Shown here one piece after another: positions 43,151 to 49,786 of a DNA stretch of 64,000 nucleotides. The notes under the pieces were generated by a model. That model ran no database searches, was not told the DNA's origin, and saw only the letters and a program-made list of their open reading frames with translations. The position numbers and the translations under genes were made by a program. The DNA is from an uncultured Bacteroidales bacterium (GTDB lineage Bacteria; Bacteroidota; Bacteroidia; Bacteroidales; JAUNSR01). The stretch's first letter is position 1. Every line of letters begins with the position of its first letter. The DNA lies in NCBI GenBank assembly GCA_947074105.1, contig CAMTON010000001.1, positions 62,001 to 126,000 on the forward strand, written 5' to 3'.

Positions 43151-43545
43151 AGCATGTAAGCAAAATAAGTGTAGATTTAACATGTTATAACACAAGCCAC
43201 AATTTTTGTTACTTAAACAGATATTTTTGAACAATTTTGAAAGGTATATTTTATACCTGTGTATCATTTTTCCATAAATATCTATGTTTTAACATATTTT
43301 TGTTATATCTAAAGATTGGGAATATAAAATGTAAATAATAAAATTTAGAATTTAACTACTGAGAATTTTTATTAAAAAATAAGCTATGATTTTTAAATTA
43401 TTATTATTTTATAATATCTTTATTATTAGACAGTTCCGTATTTAACAATTTAAATCTATAAAATGCCTTTTAGAAACAATTTAAAGAAAAGATGACCTGT
43501 TTAGTAATAAAGTGTAATTTTAATAGAATAAAAAATAACATTTTT
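43151..43545. other. AT-rich non-coding stretch before the ilv promoter
   Basis: No reading frame or clear motif except the dyad AGGTATA-TTT-TATACCT at 43242-43258, a possible operator. The dyad is 290 bp upstream of the ilv promoter. Confidence 0.5.
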
Positions 43546-43577
43546 CTTGCAAATTATATTATCGTGTATTACTTTTG
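43546..43577 (+). promoter_or_regulatory. Promoter of the ilv operon
   Basis: CTTG (43546-43549), a 20-bp spacer and TACTTTTG (43570-43577) fit the Bacteroidales promoter. The start would be near 43584, about 23 nt before the leader-peptide ATG. Confidence 0.65.
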
Positions 43578-43606
43578 CGTCATCAAACAATAAAAAAGAC
43601 AAAACA

Positions 43607-43666
43607 ATGATAACAAATTATACAATTATTCGCCTCATCTCTTCAATTCTGGTCGTCGTGGCATAG
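43607..43666 (+). CDS. ilv leader peptide (attenuator)
   Basis: A 19-codon frame, MITNYTIIRLISSILVVVA, ending in TAG. Five Ile, two Leu and three Val make up 10 of 19 residues, with Ile-Leu-Val-Val-Val at positions 14-18 next to the stop. It lies between the promoter and the terminator hairpin upstream of ilvD, in exactly the place of the leader peptides of enteric ilv operons. Ribosome stalling at these codons when charged branched-chain tRNAs are scarce would control the downstream structures. The peptide itself needs no function. Confidence 0.85.
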   Translation: MITNYTIIRLISSILVVVA

Positions 43667-43669
43667 AAT

Positions 43670-43764
43670 AGGGAAAGGCTGTGTGTATAATTTATCTGTC
43701 ATTATAATATAAATGGATATCCGGTGAGCCTTTCTCTTTAATTTGAGAAAGGCTCATTGTTTTA
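43670..43764 (+). promoter_or_regulatory. Antiterminator/terminator of the ilv attenuator
   Basis: Terminator: TGAGCCTTTCTC (43725-43736) and GAGAAAGGCTCA (43745-43756), 12 perfect pairs, then TTGTTTTAT. Antiterminator: AGGGAAAGGCT (43670-43680) can pair with AGCCTTTCTCT (43727-43737), the terminator 5' arm, through 11 pairs with one G-U. The antiterminator strand starts three bases after the leader stop, so a ribosome at the stop codon would cover it and let the terminator form, while one stalled at the Ile-Leu-Val run would leave it free. Confidence 0.8.
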
Positions 43765-43827
43765 TAAAAAAGAGAATTTAAGCTTTCATAAAAGGAATAA
43801 ATTCTGATACGATAAAAAGCTTTCAGT

Positions 43828-45660
43828 ATGAAACATAAATTGAGAAGTGCTCAGAGCACTCAGGGAAGAAGGATGGCCGGAGCCCGCGCATTATGGCGTG
43901 CAAACGGAATGAAAGAAGATATGATAGGAAAACCTATCATTGCTATTGTAAATTCTTTTACTCAATTTGTACCGGGACATGTTCATCTGCATGAGATCGG
44001 ACAACAGGTAAAGAGCGAGATTGAGAAACTTGGCTGTTTCGCTGCTGAATTTGATACTATCGCTATTGACGACGGTATAGCAATGGGACACGACGGTATG
44101 CTTTACTCATTACCTTCAAGAGATCTTATAGCCGACAGCGTGGAGTATATGGTCAATGCACATAAGGCTGACGCAATGGTCTGCATAAGCAACTGTGACA
44201 AGATCACTCCGGGTATGCTTATGGCCGCTATGAGACTTAACATCCCTGCAATTTTTGTATCAGGAGGACCTATGGAAGCCGGCAGAATGGGCGATAAACG
44301 TCTGGATCTTATTGATGCGATGATTCAGGCAGCTGATAAGAGCGTTGATGATGCAACGGTGCGTGAAGTGGAAAACGCTGCATGTCCGACCTGCGGAAGC
44401 TGCTCGGGTATGTTTACGGCAAACTCGATGAACTGTCTTAATGAAGTTCTTGGTATGGCTCTTCCCGGTAACGGAACAATTGTAGCAACTCATAAGAACA
44501 GAAAATATTTATTTGAAAAAGCTGCGAAACAGATCGTAGATAATACTTACAGATATTACAGAGACGGAGATGAAAGCGTTTTGCCTAGATCTATAGCAAA
44601 AAGAGAGGCTTTCCTTAACTCAATGACTCTTGATATCGCAATGGGCGGATCAACAAATACAATCCTACATCTTCTTGCTATCGCAAATGAAGCAGGTGTG
44701 GATTTCACAATGGAAGATATTCATCATCTTTCATTAAAAACTCCTGTTCTTTGTAAAGTGGCGCCGAATACTCAGAAGTATCACATAGAAGATGTGAACA
44801 GAGCCGGAGGTATTCTTTCTATTATGGGAGAACTTGATAAAAAAGGACTTGTAAATAAAGAAGTTTCGAGAGTTGACAATATGACTCTTGGTGAGGCGAT
44901 CGATAAATACAGTCTTAGCAGCAATAACCTGACAGAAGAAGCAAAAGAACTATGGCATTCCGCGCCTGCGGGGAAATTCAACCTTGTGCTTGGCTCACAG
45001 GATACTAAGTTCGATACTCTTGATGCTGACAGAACAGAGGGATGCATCAGAGATTTCGACAATGCCTATGTAAAAGACGGAGGTCTTGCTATTCTGAGAG
45101 GTAATATAGCACAGGACGGATGTGTGGTGAAGACAGCAGGTGTCGATCCTTCTATATTTAAATTTAAAGGTACGGCAAGAGTATTCCAGTCACAGGATGA
45201 TGCCTGTGACGGTATCCTTGGCGGAAAGGTGAACAGCGGTGATGTGGTAGTAATCACATATGAAGGGCCTAAAGGCGGTCCGGGAATGCAGGAGATGCTC
45301 TACCCTACTTCATATATCAAATCAAGACATCTGGGTAAAGAGTGTGCTCTTATTACAGACGGCAGATTCTCAGGTGGTACATCAGGTCTTTCGATTGGAC
45401 ATATCTCTCCGGAAGCAGCTGCAGGAGGTAATATAGCACTTGTAAGAGATAATGATATTATTGAAATAGATATAGAAAACCGCTCTATCAATGTATTGAT
45501 AAGCGATGAAGAACTTGAAGTTCGCCGCGTGCTTGAAATGGAACGCGGAAATATGGCTTTTACGCCGACATCAAGAGAGAGAGAGATTTCAAAAGCTCTT
45601 AAGGCTTATGCTAAGATGGTTAGCTCAGCCGATAAAGGAGCAGTAAGAATTGTAGATTAG
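43828..45660 (+). CDS. ilvD: Dihydroxy-acid dehydratase
   Basis: Third enzyme of valine/isoleucine synthesis: it dehydrates 2,3-dihydroxy-isovalerate and -methylvalerate to the 2-keto acids, using an Fe-S cluster and Mg2+. At 610 residues it is a full-length IlvD. Cluster cysteines are in [10 protein letters not shown] and [37 protein letters not shown] is the C-terminal IlvD/Edd signature. It is the first structural gene after the attenuator, 64 bp past the terminator, and heads ilvD-B-N-TE-C. Confidence 0.98.
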
Positions 45661-45678
45661 TATTAAAAACTAAAAGTG

Positions 45679-47382
45679 ATGGAGAAAATTACAGGATCTG
45701 AAGCTCTTATAAGATCATTACTTGAAGAGGGCGTAAAAACGGTATTCGGATACCCCGGAGGGCAGATAATGCCGGTTTTTGACAAACTTTATGATTATAA
45801 GGATAAACTGAGACATATTCTTGTAAGACATGAACAGGGTGCGGTACATGCTGCACAGGGTTATGCGCGCGTAAGCGGCGACGTAGGTGTTGTCCTTGTC
45901 ACTTCCGGACCGGGAGCGACAAATGTTATAACAGGTGTTGCCGACGCGATGATTGACTCTACCCCGCTTGTGGTTATTACAGGTCAGGTTCCATCACCAT
46001 TGCTGGGAACAGATGCTTTCCAGGAAACTGATGTCGTGGGTATTACATTACCTATCACGAAATGGAGCTACCAGATTCAGTCGGCGGACGAAATTCCGTG
46101 GGCTATCGCAAGAGCATTTTATATAGCAAGAAGCGGACGTCCGGGACCAGTGGTCATCGATTTTCCGAAGAATGCTCAGATAGGAATGATGGACTTCGAA
46201 TATAAGAAATGCGACTTTATAAGAAGTTATCGTCCGGTACCACCTACTGATCCGCATTCACTGATTCAGGCGGCTTCACTGATTAATAAAGCACAAAAAC
46301 CTTTTATTATCTTCGGTCAGGGAGTTATTCTTTCTGAAGCTGAAGAGGAATTGAAGAATCTTTTAGAAAAAACCGGAATTCCCGCAGCATCCACACTTTT
46401 AGGCTTGTCTGCTCTTCCTTCAGGTTACTCGTTATACAAAGGAATGGTTGGTATGCACGGTAATCTTGGTCCAAATAAAAAAACCAATGAATGTGATGTT
46501 CTTATTGCTATTGGCATGCGTTTTGATGACCGTGTAACAAGCGATATCCATACTTATGCCAAACAGGCAAAAGTGATCCATATTGATATAGATCCTTCTG
46601 AAATAGGCAAAAACGTGGCTGCCGAGATAGGAATACTTGGTAATGCGAAAGATGTACTTCAGAAACTTAATCCTATGCTTGAAAGAAGAAAGTTTGAGGA
46701 ATGGAGCAAAGAATTCGATGATCTTAATGAAATAGAGAATAAGAAAGTGATAATTCCGGAAACTCAGCCACAGGAAGGCGACCTGAATATGGGTGAAGTA
46801 GTTGCTAAAGTATCGGAACTTACAAATAATGAGGCTATCATTGTTACAGACGTAGGTCAGAATCAGATGATGGCTGCAAGATATTCCAAATTCAATAAAT
46901 CAAGAAGTTTTGTTTCTTCCGGAGGCCTTGGAACTATGGGATACGGTCTGCCTGCCGCTATTGGGGCTAAAATAGGTATGCCGGACAGACATGTATGTTT
47001 TTTTACAGGAGACGGAGGTATACAGATGAGTATTCAGGAACTTGGAACCATACTTCAGGAAAATACAGGAGTCAAGATCATTATTCTTAATAATTCGTGG
47101 TTGGGAATGGTACGTCAATGGCAGGAACTGTTCTTTGATGAAAGGTATTCTGAGACATCAATGAAAAATCCTGATTTTATAGCTCTTGCAGCCGCATATG
47201 GCATAAAGGGCAAGAAAGTGGATAAAAGAGCCGATCTTGAAGGTGCAATAAAAGAGATGCTTTCCGATAACGAACCCTATCTTCTTGAAGTGAACGTTAT
47301 TGAGAAAGGAATGGTATTCCCGATGATTCCGGGAGGGAAATGTGTTTCGAAAATGATGTTAACAACTACAGAATGGCATTGA
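45679..47382 (+). CDS. ilvB: Acetolactate synthase large subunit
   Basis: ThDP enzyme joining two pyruvates, or pyruvate and 2-ketobutyrate, in the first common step of branched-chain synthesis. I start at the ATG one codon after an in-frame GTG. Glu52 in VRHEQGAVHAAQGYARVSG activates ThDP; GDGGIQMSIQELGT to NNSWLGMVRQWQ is the ThDP/Mg2+-binding stretch. FAD-binding middle domain about 190-340. It lies 18 bp after ilvD and one base before ilvN. Confidence 0.98.
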   Translation: MEKITGSEALIRSLLEEGVKTVFGYPGGQIMPVFDKLYDYKDKLRHILVRHEQGAVHAAQGYARVSGDVGVVLVTSGPGATNVITGVADAMIDSTPLVVITGQVPSPLLGTDAFQETDVVGITLPITKWSYQIQSADEIPWAIARAFYIARSGRPGPVVIDFPKNAQIGMMDFEYKKCDFIRSYRPVPPTDPHSLIQAASLINKAQKPFIIFGQGVILSEAEEELKNLLEKTGIPAASTLLGLSALPSGYSLYKGMVGMHGNLGPNKKTNECDVLIAIGMRFDDRVTSDIHTYAKQAKVIHIDIDPSEIGKNVAAEIGILGNAKDVLQKLNPMLERRKFEEWSKEFDDLNEIENKKVIIPETQPQEGDLNMGEVVAKVSELTNNEAIIVTDVGQNQMMAARYSKFNKSRSFVSSGGLGTMGYGLPAAIGAKIGMPDRHVCFFTGDGGIQMSIQELGTILQENTGVKIIILNNSWLGMVRQWQELFFDERYSETSMKNPDFIALAAAYGIKGKKVDKRADLEGAIKEMLSDNEPYLLEVNVIEKGMVFPMIPGGKCVSKMMLTTTEWH

Positions 47383-47383
47383 T

Positions 47384-47956
47384 ATGGAAGATAATAATAT
47401 AAAACAAGATGATGTAACTCTTTTTACGGTAACTGTCTATTCTGAAAATCAGGTAGGTCTGTTGAACCAGGTTTCCATTATCTTTACAAGAAGAAATCTG
47501 AATATCTGGAGCCTTTCGGTTTCGGCTTCCGCAATAGAGGGAGTTCATAAGTTTACGATCACAACTCATACTACCAGAAGTCAGATTGAGAAAGTAGTAA
47601 AACAGATTGAGAAACGAATAGACGTGTTAAGAGCATTCTTTTATACTAATGAAGAAATCATACATCAGGAGATTGCTCTATATAAAGTAGAAACGGAAAA
47701 ACTTCTTGAAAGTGACGAAATAGAAGATCTGATAAGAAAACATAATGCGAGGATTCTCGAAATCAATAAAATATTTACTGTTATTGAGAAGACTGGGCAT
47801 TGTGAGGAAACAGGAGCTTTGTTTGATGATCTTAATAAATATGGAGTGCTTCAATTCGTAAGATCTGGACGTATAGCCATAACAAAAGACAGAACCGAGC
47901 ATGTTTCTGTATTTCTTGAGGAACAGGAAGTGCGTAGATTGAAAGAAAAGCAGTAA
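47384..47956 (+). CDS. ilvN: Acetolactate synthase small (regulatory) subunit
   Basis: At 190 residues this is the IlvN/IlvH type. The N-terminal ACT domain (about 14-88: LFTVTVYSENQVGLLNQVSIIFTRRNLNIWSLSVS-like sequence) binds valine for feedback inhibition; the C-terminal domain (about 95-175) completes it. It starts one base after the ilvB stop, so the two subunits are probably made by coupled translation. Confidence 0.95.
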   Translation: MEDNNIKQDDVTLFTVTVYSENQVGLLNQVSIIFTRRNLNIWSLSVSASAIEGVHKFTITTHTTRSQIEKVVKQIEKRIDVLRAFFYTNEEIIHQEIALYKVETEKLLESDEIEDLIRKHNARILEINKIFTVIEKTGHCEETGALFDDLNKYGVLQFVRSGRIAITKDRTEHVSVFLEEQEVRRLKEKQ

Positions 47957-47979: not shown

Positions 47980-48717
47980 ATGGAAGAGAATCTTTTTTTA
48001 GGCGTTACAGAATATAAGGTATATTATAATCTATTGAATGCGGAAGGAGAAATGCCGGTTTCGCAGATAGCCGAATCTTTAATAAATGCAGCTTCACATC
48101 ACGCTTACAGATTAGGTGTCGGATTTAATAATCTTATAAAAAACAATCATACGTGGGTACTTGCACGTATGGCTATTGAGATGAAAAGATACCCTAAAGC
48201 AGAGGAAACACTAGTGATAGAAACATGGATTGAAGGTTTCAATAAGGTTTTCACCACAAGAAACATGAGACTTCTGACCTCAGAGGGCGAAGAGCTGGGT
48301 TTCTGCAGAACGATATGGTCGGTAATTGACTATAACACAAGAGAAGCTCAGGACCTTATGCAATACAGGGATATCCCACGTCTTATAAACGACAAACCCT
48401 GTCCTATTGAAAAACCGGGAAGAATACCTGCGGTGATCGATGAGGATGCTGAGATTTATAAAGTCAGATACAGTGACCTTGATATAAACAGACATATGAC
48501 AAGTTCTAAATATATCGAGCACATGCTTGACAGATTCTCACTTGAAACTTTCGACAACAAAAGAGTCGGTCGATTTGAAATACAGTATATCAATGAGGCT
48601 CTTTATGATGACGAAATAAAAATTTTAAAACAAAAAACAAAAGAGGGTGAATATATCACTGAAATGAAAAACAGCGATGGAAACACTCTTTGCAAAAGCA
48701 GAATAATCTTTATATAA
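47980..48717 (+). CDS. Acyl-ACP thioesterase (FatA/FatB-type hot-dog)
   Basis: Releases fatty acids from acyl carrier protein. At 245 residues it has two hot-dog halves: the first (about 1-140) with WVLARMAIEMKRYPKAEETLVIETW, the second (about 150-245) with the active-site motif YSDLDINRHMTSSKYIEHMLDRF, which contains the expected Asn-x-His. No signal peptide, so cytoplasmic. It lies between ilvN and ilvC within the operon, 23 bp from each neighbour. Keto acids of this pathway also prime branched-chain fatty acids, abundant in Bacteroidales, which may explain the location; that link is inference. Confidence 0.9.
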   Translation: MEENLFLGVTEYKVYYNLLNAEGEMPVSQIAESLINAASHHAYRLGVGFNNLIKNNHTWVLARMAIEMKRYPKAEETLVIETWIEGFNKVFTTRNMRLLTSEGEELGFCRTIWSVIDYNTREAQDLMQYRDIPRLINDKPCPIEKPGRIPAVIDEDAEIYKVRYSDLDINRHMTSSKYIEHMLDRFSLETFDNKRVGRFEIQYINEALYDDEIKILKQKTKEGEYITEMKNSDGNTLCKSRIIFI

Positions 48718-48739: not shown

Positions 48740-49786
48740 ATGGCTATAATGAATTTTGGTGGTGTTGAAGAAAATGTACGCACACGTGAAGAATTTCCTT
48801 TGGAAAAAGCAAGAGAGGTATTAAAAGACGAAACTATCGCAGTTATCGGTTACGGTGTGCAGGGTCCTGGTCAGGCTTTGAACCTTCGTGATAACGGATT
48901 CAACGTTATCGTAGGTCAACGTAAAGATTCAAAAACATGGGACAAAGCTGTCGCTGACGGTTGGGTACCTGGAGAAACTCTTTTCGACATCGAGGAAGCT
49001 TGCGAAAGAGGTACAATTATTCAGTACTTACTATCAGATGCTGCTCAGATCGCAGTATGGCCAACAGTAAAGAAACATCTTACTCCGGGGAAAGCTCTTT
49101 ATTTCTCTCACGGTTTTGGTGTAACTTACAAAGAAAGAACAGGAATCATCCCTCCTGCTGATGTAGACGTTATCCTTGTTGCGCCTAAAGGTTCAGGTAC
49201 TTCTCTTCGCAGAATGTTCCTTCAGGGACGTGGTCTTAACTCTTCTTTCGCAATTTTCCAGGATGCAACAGGTAAAGCTCAGGATCGCGTAGTAGCTCTT
49301 GGTATCGGTGTTGGTTCTGGTTACCTTTTCGAAACAACATTCAAAAAAGAAGTATATTCTGACCTTACAGGTGAGCGTGGAACATTGATGGGTGCTATCC
49401 AGGGTATCTTCGCTGCTCAGTATGAAGTTCTTCGTGAAAACGGACATTCTCCTTCTGAAGCATTCAATGAAACAGTAGAAGAGCTTACTCAGTCGCTTAT
49501 GCCTCTTGTGGCAGAAAACGGTATGGACTGGATGTATGCTAACTGTTCTACAACAGCTCAGAGAGGAGCTCTAGACTGGTGGAAACCTTTCCACGATGCA
49601 ACAAAACCTGTATTCGAAAAATTATATTCTGAAGTAGCTTGCGGAAATGAAGCTCAGCGTTCAATCGATCTTAACTCAAAAGTTGATTACCGCGAAAAAC
49701 TTGAAGAAGAACTTAAAGAACTTCGTGAAAGCGAAATGTGGAGAACTGGTAATACAGTACGTAAACTTCGTCCTGAAAACAACTAA
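48740..49786 (+). CDS. ilvC: Ketol-acid reductoisomerase
   Basis: Second enzyme of branched-chain synthesis: rearranges and reduces acetolactate or acetohydroxybutyrate with NADPH and Mg2+. At 348 residues it is the short class I form. GYGVQGPGQALNLRDNGFNV is the Rossmann loop, HGFGVTYKE and VAPKGSGTSLRRMF are family motifs, and ETTFKKEVYSDLTGERGTLMG carries the Mg2+-binding Asp/Glu. Last gene of the operon, followed by a strong terminator. Many codons are the high-expression type (e.g. GCT, CTT, GGT), more so than in ilvD. Confidence 0.98.
   Translation: MAIMNFGGVEENVRTREEFPLEKAREVLKDETIAVIGYGVQGPGQALNLRDNGFNVIVGQRKDSKTWDKAVADGWVPGETLFDIEEACERGTIIQYLLSDAAQIAVWPTVKKHLTPGKALYFSHGFGVTYKERTGIIPPADVDVILVAPKGSGTSLRRMFLQGRGLNSSFAIFQDATGKAQDRVVALGIGVGSGYLFETTFKKEVYSDLTGERGTLMGAIQGIFAAQYEVLRENGHSPSEAFNETVEELTQSLMPLVAENGMDWMYANCSTTAQRGALDWWKPFHDATKPVFEKLYSEVACGNEAQRSIDLNSKVDYREKLEEELKELRESEMWRTGNTVRKLRPENN

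Follow-up and report, generated by a model that had tools for sequence, protein, structure and literature searches.

The ilvD-ilvB-ilvN-thioesterase-ilvC operon of an uncultured Bacteroidales bacterium is, we propose, controlled by a classic ribosome-mediated transcription attenuator with three alternating helices, a reading to which comparative sequence analysis leads us to assign a probability of about 0.93. The element lies on the forward strand of a 64,000-nucleotide stretch of DNA (the window), and computation shows its parts, their co-conservation, the species-specific pairing of its strands, the ruler-like spacing of its control codons, and a bias in its codon use. A sequence-only reading of this region had already proposed a branched-chain attenuator; the comparative evidence now strongly supports that proposal, although the accompanying views that there is no 1:2 hairpin and that the phenomenon might be new to the phylum did not stand.

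RESULTS

Anatomy of the element and its operon

The putative promoter (43547 to 43577), which is of the Bacteroidota type, was read from the sequence as TTG at 43547 to 43549, a spacer of 20 nucleotides, and TACTTTTG at 43570 to 43577, an arrangement that we take to be a match to the Bacteroides -33/-7 promoter consensus. Transcription would start near 43583, as placed from this match. Among 75 relatives examined, TAnnTTTG is found 5′ of the leader in 65 (versus 9% in shuffles) and the fuller TTG-N18..22-TAnnTTTG in 59. The leader peptide open reading frame (43607 to 43666) runs from an ATG at 43607 to a TAG stop codon at 43664 to 43666 and encodes MITNYTIIRLISSILVVVA; 10 of its 19 codons specify Ile, Leu, or Val, none specifies Trp, and the peptide ends in Ile-Leu-Val-Val-Val-Ala. 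The control codons nearest the antiterminator strand form the run Leu-Val-Val-Val (CTG GTC GTC GTG; 43649 to 43660). The antiterminator strand itself (strand 2; AGGGAAAGGCTG, 43670 to 43681), whose first base lies three bases past the leader stop, forms a duplex of -15.5 kcal/mol with AGCCTTTCTC of the terminator 5′ arm. The intrinsic terminator hairpin (strands 3:4; 43722 to 43759; -24.3 kcal/mol) was returned by a terminator scan with 15 pairs, 7 of them GC, and is followed by TTTTAT; terminator-like sites of such quality are expected at about 0.2 per 600-nucleotide shuffle. With 43670 to 43681 sharing the terminator 5′ arm, antiterminator pairing and the terminator are predicted to be mutually exclusive. 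The promoter, the 19-codon leader with its 10 branched-chain codons and its characteristic ending, and the position of the antiterminator strand had all been recognized in the sequence-only reading and are confirmed here. That reading also placed a 12-bp terminator at this site; the terminator is present and pairs with the antiterminator strand as claimed, but it comprises 15 pairs.

Downstream, on the same strand, lie ilvD (dihydroxy-acid dehydratase; 43828 to 45660; PF00920 and PF24877), which is the first gene of the operon, ilvB (acetolactate synthase large subunit; 45676 to 47382; TPP enzyme domains), ilvN (acetolactate synthase small subunit; 47384 to 47956; PF10369 and PF22629), an acyl-ACP thioesterase gene (47980 to 48717; PF01643 and PF20791), and ilvC (ketol-acid reductoisomerase; 48740 to 49786; PF07991 and PF01450). 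Since Ile, Leu, and Val share the enzymes of this operon, a mixed Ile/Leu/Val leader suits it well. A simple sigma-70 scan, whose model does not extend to Bacteroidota-type promoters, returned no promoter between the terminator and ilvD, and the operon therefore most likely needs readthrough. The presence of an acyl-ACP thioesterase inside the operon means that the attenuator would govern a fatty-acid enzyme too. Further upstream, on the reverse strand, the window carries a member of the paralogous Bacteroidetes sRNA family FopS (Rfam RF04319; 43045 to 43115; 75.1 bits), which is present in a sister species (L003) as well.

Distribution among ilvD loci

We scored how well a single arm could engage two partners, an upstream strand and a second arm that lies downstream and precedes a U tract; this three-way score was 49 at the window locus and at most 37 across 504 dinucleotide-shuffled versions of such upstream regions. 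An attenuator was then called wherever an Ile/Leu/Val-rich open reading frame was accompanied by a terminator of -11 kcal/mol or lower and an antiterminator of -9 kcal/mol or lower. By this definition, 79 of 130 Bacteroidales-type ilvD upstream regions, drawn from GTDB contigs and from genus- and order-level whole genomes, gave a positive call. Among the controls, the call came up in 2 of 390 shuffles and in 6 of 480 flank windows (two of these six being the genuine leader re-read in short loci), in 0 of 130 reverse strands, and at 0 of 18 non-Bacteroidota ilvD loci. All three of the other genomes of the window's genus with a detected ilvD have the attenuator (L003, L004, and L005), and most Bacteroidales ilvD upstream regions have an Ile/Leu/Val-rich leader at the equivalent position. 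The comparison of Bacteroidales ilvD upstream regions, which the sequence-only reading had put forward as a check, thus came out in favor of a conserved leader.

Some 40% of the Bacteroidales-type loci were not called, most Prevotellaceae among them, which suggests that attenuator control has been lost or replaced in this family. Upstream regions of the Prevotellaceae type are mostly devoid of both the Ile/Leu/Val leader and the antiterminator (L039, L048, L049, L053, L054, L058, L060, and L064). In a phylum-wide sample, IlvD was at most 56% identical, and the nearest 29 loci gave 2 loose attenuator calls. The attenuator therefore seems to be common across the order Bacteroidales and is apparently missing in most of the Prevotellaceae sampled.

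Coordinated divergence of the antiterminator and terminator arms

The leaders of different families are not alignable by sequence. Arms anchored on a sequence consensus were mis-registered in divergent members; hence, we turned to duplexes of own versus foreign strands, on the premise that strands kept complementary by selection should pair better within a species than when swapped between species. The antiterminator strand and terminator arm (2:3) gave an own mean of -13.7 kcal/mol versus -10.6 kcal/mol when permuted (z = -12.0), and pairing of the two terminator arms (3:4) was likewise species specific (-18.0 versus -12.1 kcal/mol). Coordinated changes in the arms are clear in L045 (GGAAGGGC/GGCCCTTCC) and L061 (GAGAATGGTTT/AAACCATTCTC) and also in L062 and L072. 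Most loci share the arm sequence GAGAAAGG/CCTTTCTC irrespective of family, a conservation that the three-way pairing constraint may explain. RNAalifold reported few double compensatory changes among 11 Bacteroides/Phocaeicola sequences because the arms hardly vary there; it also reported few among four congeneric sequences, which are too few for this purpose. Own-versus-foreign pairing thus points to coordinated divergence of the arms; of the compensatory changes that the sequence-only reading had suggested seeking in both stems, RNAalifold gives few.

A predicted anti-antiterminator hairpin

The pre-terminator RNA (43583 to 43721) folds at -28.0 kcal/mol into a 1:2 hairpin (the anti-antiterminator; 43606 to 43703), in which the antiterminator strand and the linker that follows are both taken up by the 5′ half of the leader (for example, AAATTATACA with TGTATAATTT) and the apex falls on the Leu-Val-Val codons. 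Over 74 loci, own 1:2 pairing was -16.5 versus -12.1 kcal/mol for permuted partners (z = -12.8); pairing with the linker alone, the antiterminator strand being left out, gave a z of -5.5, and an unrelated control target, the untranslated region after the terminator, gave a z of -0.7. When the leader of the window was rewritten in synonymous codons, the mean fold was -18.4 kcal/mol versus the native -28.0 kcal/mol and 0 of 100 variants were as good as the native sequence, while 4% of shuffled linkers matched the native fold. Strand 1 tested against the antiterminator strand alone, with the linker left out, yielded -8.6 versus -7.5 kcal/mol for shuffled sequences, and it was the addition of the linker that brought out the hairpin. 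In four relatives (L057, L059, L062, and L075) the 1:2 hairpin is no better than shuffled. The Val codons (TTCGCGTCGTGGT) are themselves base paired in Bacteroides and Phocaeicola, their partner being the segment leading into the antiterminator strand, so that the hairpin would be disrupted directly by a ribosome occupying the control codons. As with the terminator, the 1:2 hairpin and the antiterminator are predicted to be mutually exclusive. The sequence-only reading had dispensed with a separate 1:2 pause hairpin and considered the layout simpler than that in enterics; the hairpin at 43606 to 43703, its species-specific pairing, and the synonymous-codon test contradict this.

A ruler that fits a stalled ribosome, and codon bias

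Among 76 distinct leaders, the fraction of Ile/Leu/Val codons depends sharply on the distance to the antiterminator strand, being 0.95 to 0.97 at -21 to -16 nucleotides, 0.79 at -15, 0.33 at -12, and 0.07 at -9; these figures come from loci selected for both Ile/Leu/Val richness and arm pairing, which the calling score itself uses. The last control codon lies at a median of -14 nucleotides, with a standard deviation of 2.3 nucleotides that is slightly understated since codons nearer than 8 nucleotides are left out of the measure. The leader stop varies far more in position (standard deviation, 8.6 nucleotides); it often falls within the antiterminator strand, and some loci have it about 20 nucleotides past the start of that strand. 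The control-codon run thus ends some 12 to 16 nucleotides before the antiterminator strand, independent of where the stop codon lies. The leading edge of a stalled ribosome is about 12 to 13 nucleotides ahead of the A site. The ruler is consistent with stalling of the ribosome while a control codon occupies the A site, its leading edge just leaving the antiterminator strand free.

Constrained folds of the window RNA, with an assumed ribosome mask of -18 to +13 and RNA polymerase at 43736, formed the antiterminator when the ribosome was stalled at Ile, Leu, Val1, or Val2, but not when it stood at Val3 or the stop codon. The energies are standard 37°C values and may not match the conditions of the organism. 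The sequence-only reading had proposed that a stalled ribosome frees the antiterminator and that one at the stop codon yields the terminator; apart from the stall at Val3, the folds agree.

Relative to neighboring genes of the same loci, the leaders favor CTA (6.1-fold; z = 14), GTC (2.5-fold; z = 12), and ATT (1.8-fold; z = 10), and part of the GTC bias may stem from pairing within the 1:2 hairpin. According to Elf and Ehrenberg, the Salmonella leu attenuator has CUA as its control codon, and replacing this codon lowered sensitivity (PMC1183508). The CTA bias agrees with theory built for E. coli and suggests convergence.

Other amino acid operons

Under looser criteria, His leaders were found before hisG in 14 of 30 order-level loci (versus 1 of 30 shuffled) and Trp leaders such as MITINKIWWWQLFLMNPWG before trpE in 9 of 30 (versus 1); leuA leaders (4 of 30 versus 3) were not above chance. 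The three leuA loci L187, L191, and L210 look genuine despite this chance-level total. The window's own genome has a His leader (MKCITIHHHHHFNLLGGGLN) followed by a terminator upstream of hisG (L241, contig C2), which is a second candidate attenuator, and leaders like it occur in 13 further loci. Leaders with runs of Trp codons (WWW or WW) and terminators precede trpE in L246, L247, L254, L255, L258, L262, and L269. None of the Trp-run leaders before trpE in other Bacteroidales reached the gathering score of the Rfam family Bacteroid-trp.

DISCUSSION

From these features we infer that the promoter is used, that the leader is translated, and that stalling, termination, and regulation take place; the proposed switch would operate as follows. 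Transcription would begin near 43583, with a ribosome translating the Ile/Leu/Val-rich leader behind RNA polymerase. When charged tRNA is ample, the ribosome would reach the stop codon and cover the antiterminator strand; were the ribosome gone, or were none to initiate, the 1:2 hairpin would keep that strand instead. In either case the terminator at 43722 to 43759 could form, and the transcript would end near 43764. A shortage of charged tRNA-Ile, -Leu, or -Val would make the ribosome stall in the codon run and open the 1:2 hairpin; the freed antiterminator strand could then pair with the terminator 5′ arm, and the operon would be read through.

It is conceivable, but in our view very unlikely, that the antiterminator and terminator compete alone, a ribosome at the stop codon masking the antiterminator strand with no part for a 1:2 hairpin. 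The footprint of such a ribosome (to about 43677) would indeed cover most of 43670 to 43681, and the few relatives with little 1:2 pairing (L057, L059, L062, and L075) could be accommodated in this way. However, the species-specific 1:2 pairing over 74 loci and the much poorer folding of synonymous leaders in the window both argue for the hairpin, and without it an untranslated leader would read through.

Two further models fare worse. In one, the leader peptide is not the sensor; the hairpins instead respond to a protein or a small-molecule ligand, as in a riboswitch or with an RNA-binding protein, and the open reading frame is incidental. A binding protein could explain why the arms GAGAAAGG/CCTTTCTC are conserved in sequence as well as in pairing; however, the need to pair in three ways can by itself be enough to slow the evolution of the arms, and the arms of divergent members (L045, L061, L062, and L072) change together. 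Moreover, the Ile/Leu/Val richness, the fixed distance to the antiterminator strand, and the synonymous codon bias all need translation, and no Rfam riboswitch or T-box was matched at the gathering threshold; we regard this possibility as extremely improbable. The promoter and the strong terminator (-24.3 kcal/mol) also delimit a transcript of about 180 nucleotides, as would be expected if termination here were constitutive and only yielded a short stable RNA (an sRNA, or the message for a small peptide with a role of its own), with no conditional readthrough. Such an arrangement is hardly credible given that antiterminator pairing is conserved and that the operon, with no promoter found by the sigma-70 scan ahead of ilvD, most likely depends on readthrough. 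The three-helix attenuator thus remains our preferred reading.

In several respects the element resembles the enterobacterial attenuators (the ilvGMEDA, ilvBN, leu, and trp leaders): a short leader rich in codons for the products of the operon, three alternating helices (1:2, 2:3, and 3:4) with the control codons upstream of the antiterminator strand, and biased control codons (CUA in leu). It differs from them in its Bacteroidota-type promoter, its A-rich initiation region, and its first structural gene, ilvD, as well as in the free position of the leader stop, which often lies inside the antiterminator strand. We know of no sequence kinship between the two.

Leader peptide attenuation as such is already known in the Bacteroidota, and the hint in the sequence-only reading that it might be undescribed there is superseded by records in Rfam (RF01692) and in the literature (PMC9723704). 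RF01692 (Bacteroid-trp, “Bacteroidete tryptophan peptide leader RNA”) is likewise a peptide leader RNA before amino acid biosynthesis genes in the same phylum; however, it has a Trp leader and trp genes, whereas the window element has a branched-chain leader and an ilv operon, and the window matched it at chance level (19.9 bits; E = 9), short of the gathering score of 49. Rfam scans at gathering thresholds of the window and 34 related loci assigned neither the ilv leader nor the other amino acid leaders to a family, and no T-box was matched in the window at the gathering threshold, nor at an E value of ≤10 in 43540 to 43840. In Flavobacterium psychrophilum, a 2021 transcriptome study presented strong clues for leader peptide attenuation before amino acid operons, with structured leaders before pheA and hisG (PMC9723704). 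That study describes the same type of mechanism in the same phylum, inferred from transcript maps and structure; it concerns a distant lineage of the phylum, however, and its main text makes no mention of ilv. A 2020 map of B. thetaiotaomicron noted short open reading frames reminiscent of leader peptides (PMC7366714). Outside the Proteobacteria, the Corynebacterium ilvBNC attenuator, as described in two reports (PMC11857589 and PMC10272879), is also a branched-chain system with acetolactate synthase genes and a three-hairpin model, but in another phylum and with another first gene; the likeness drawn here is one of description. No account of ilvD attenuation in Bacteroidales turned up in our search of the open-access literature, Lopatovskaya et al. 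(2010) being a possible prior prediction. We therefore consider the predicted ilvD attenuator to be new, unannotated, and well supported.

Bacteroidales are major gut bacteria, and our search found no report on the control of their branched-chain operons, and the element described here is without an Rfam family. The ilv operon across an order thus gains a predicted switch in front. The control codons, stopping at about -12 to -16 nucleotides from the antiterminator strand, provide what amounts to a comparative footprint of the stalled ribosome, and an attenuator of this kind would imply that in Bacteroidales the coupling of translation to transcription is tight enough to allow attenuation. The odds seem to us evenly balanced that ribosome-mediated attenuation is the ancestral, default control of amino acid biosynthesis operons across Bacteroidales (ilv, his, trp, and leu), with the codon distance set by the leading edge of the ribosome and with an origin independent of that in the enterobacteria.
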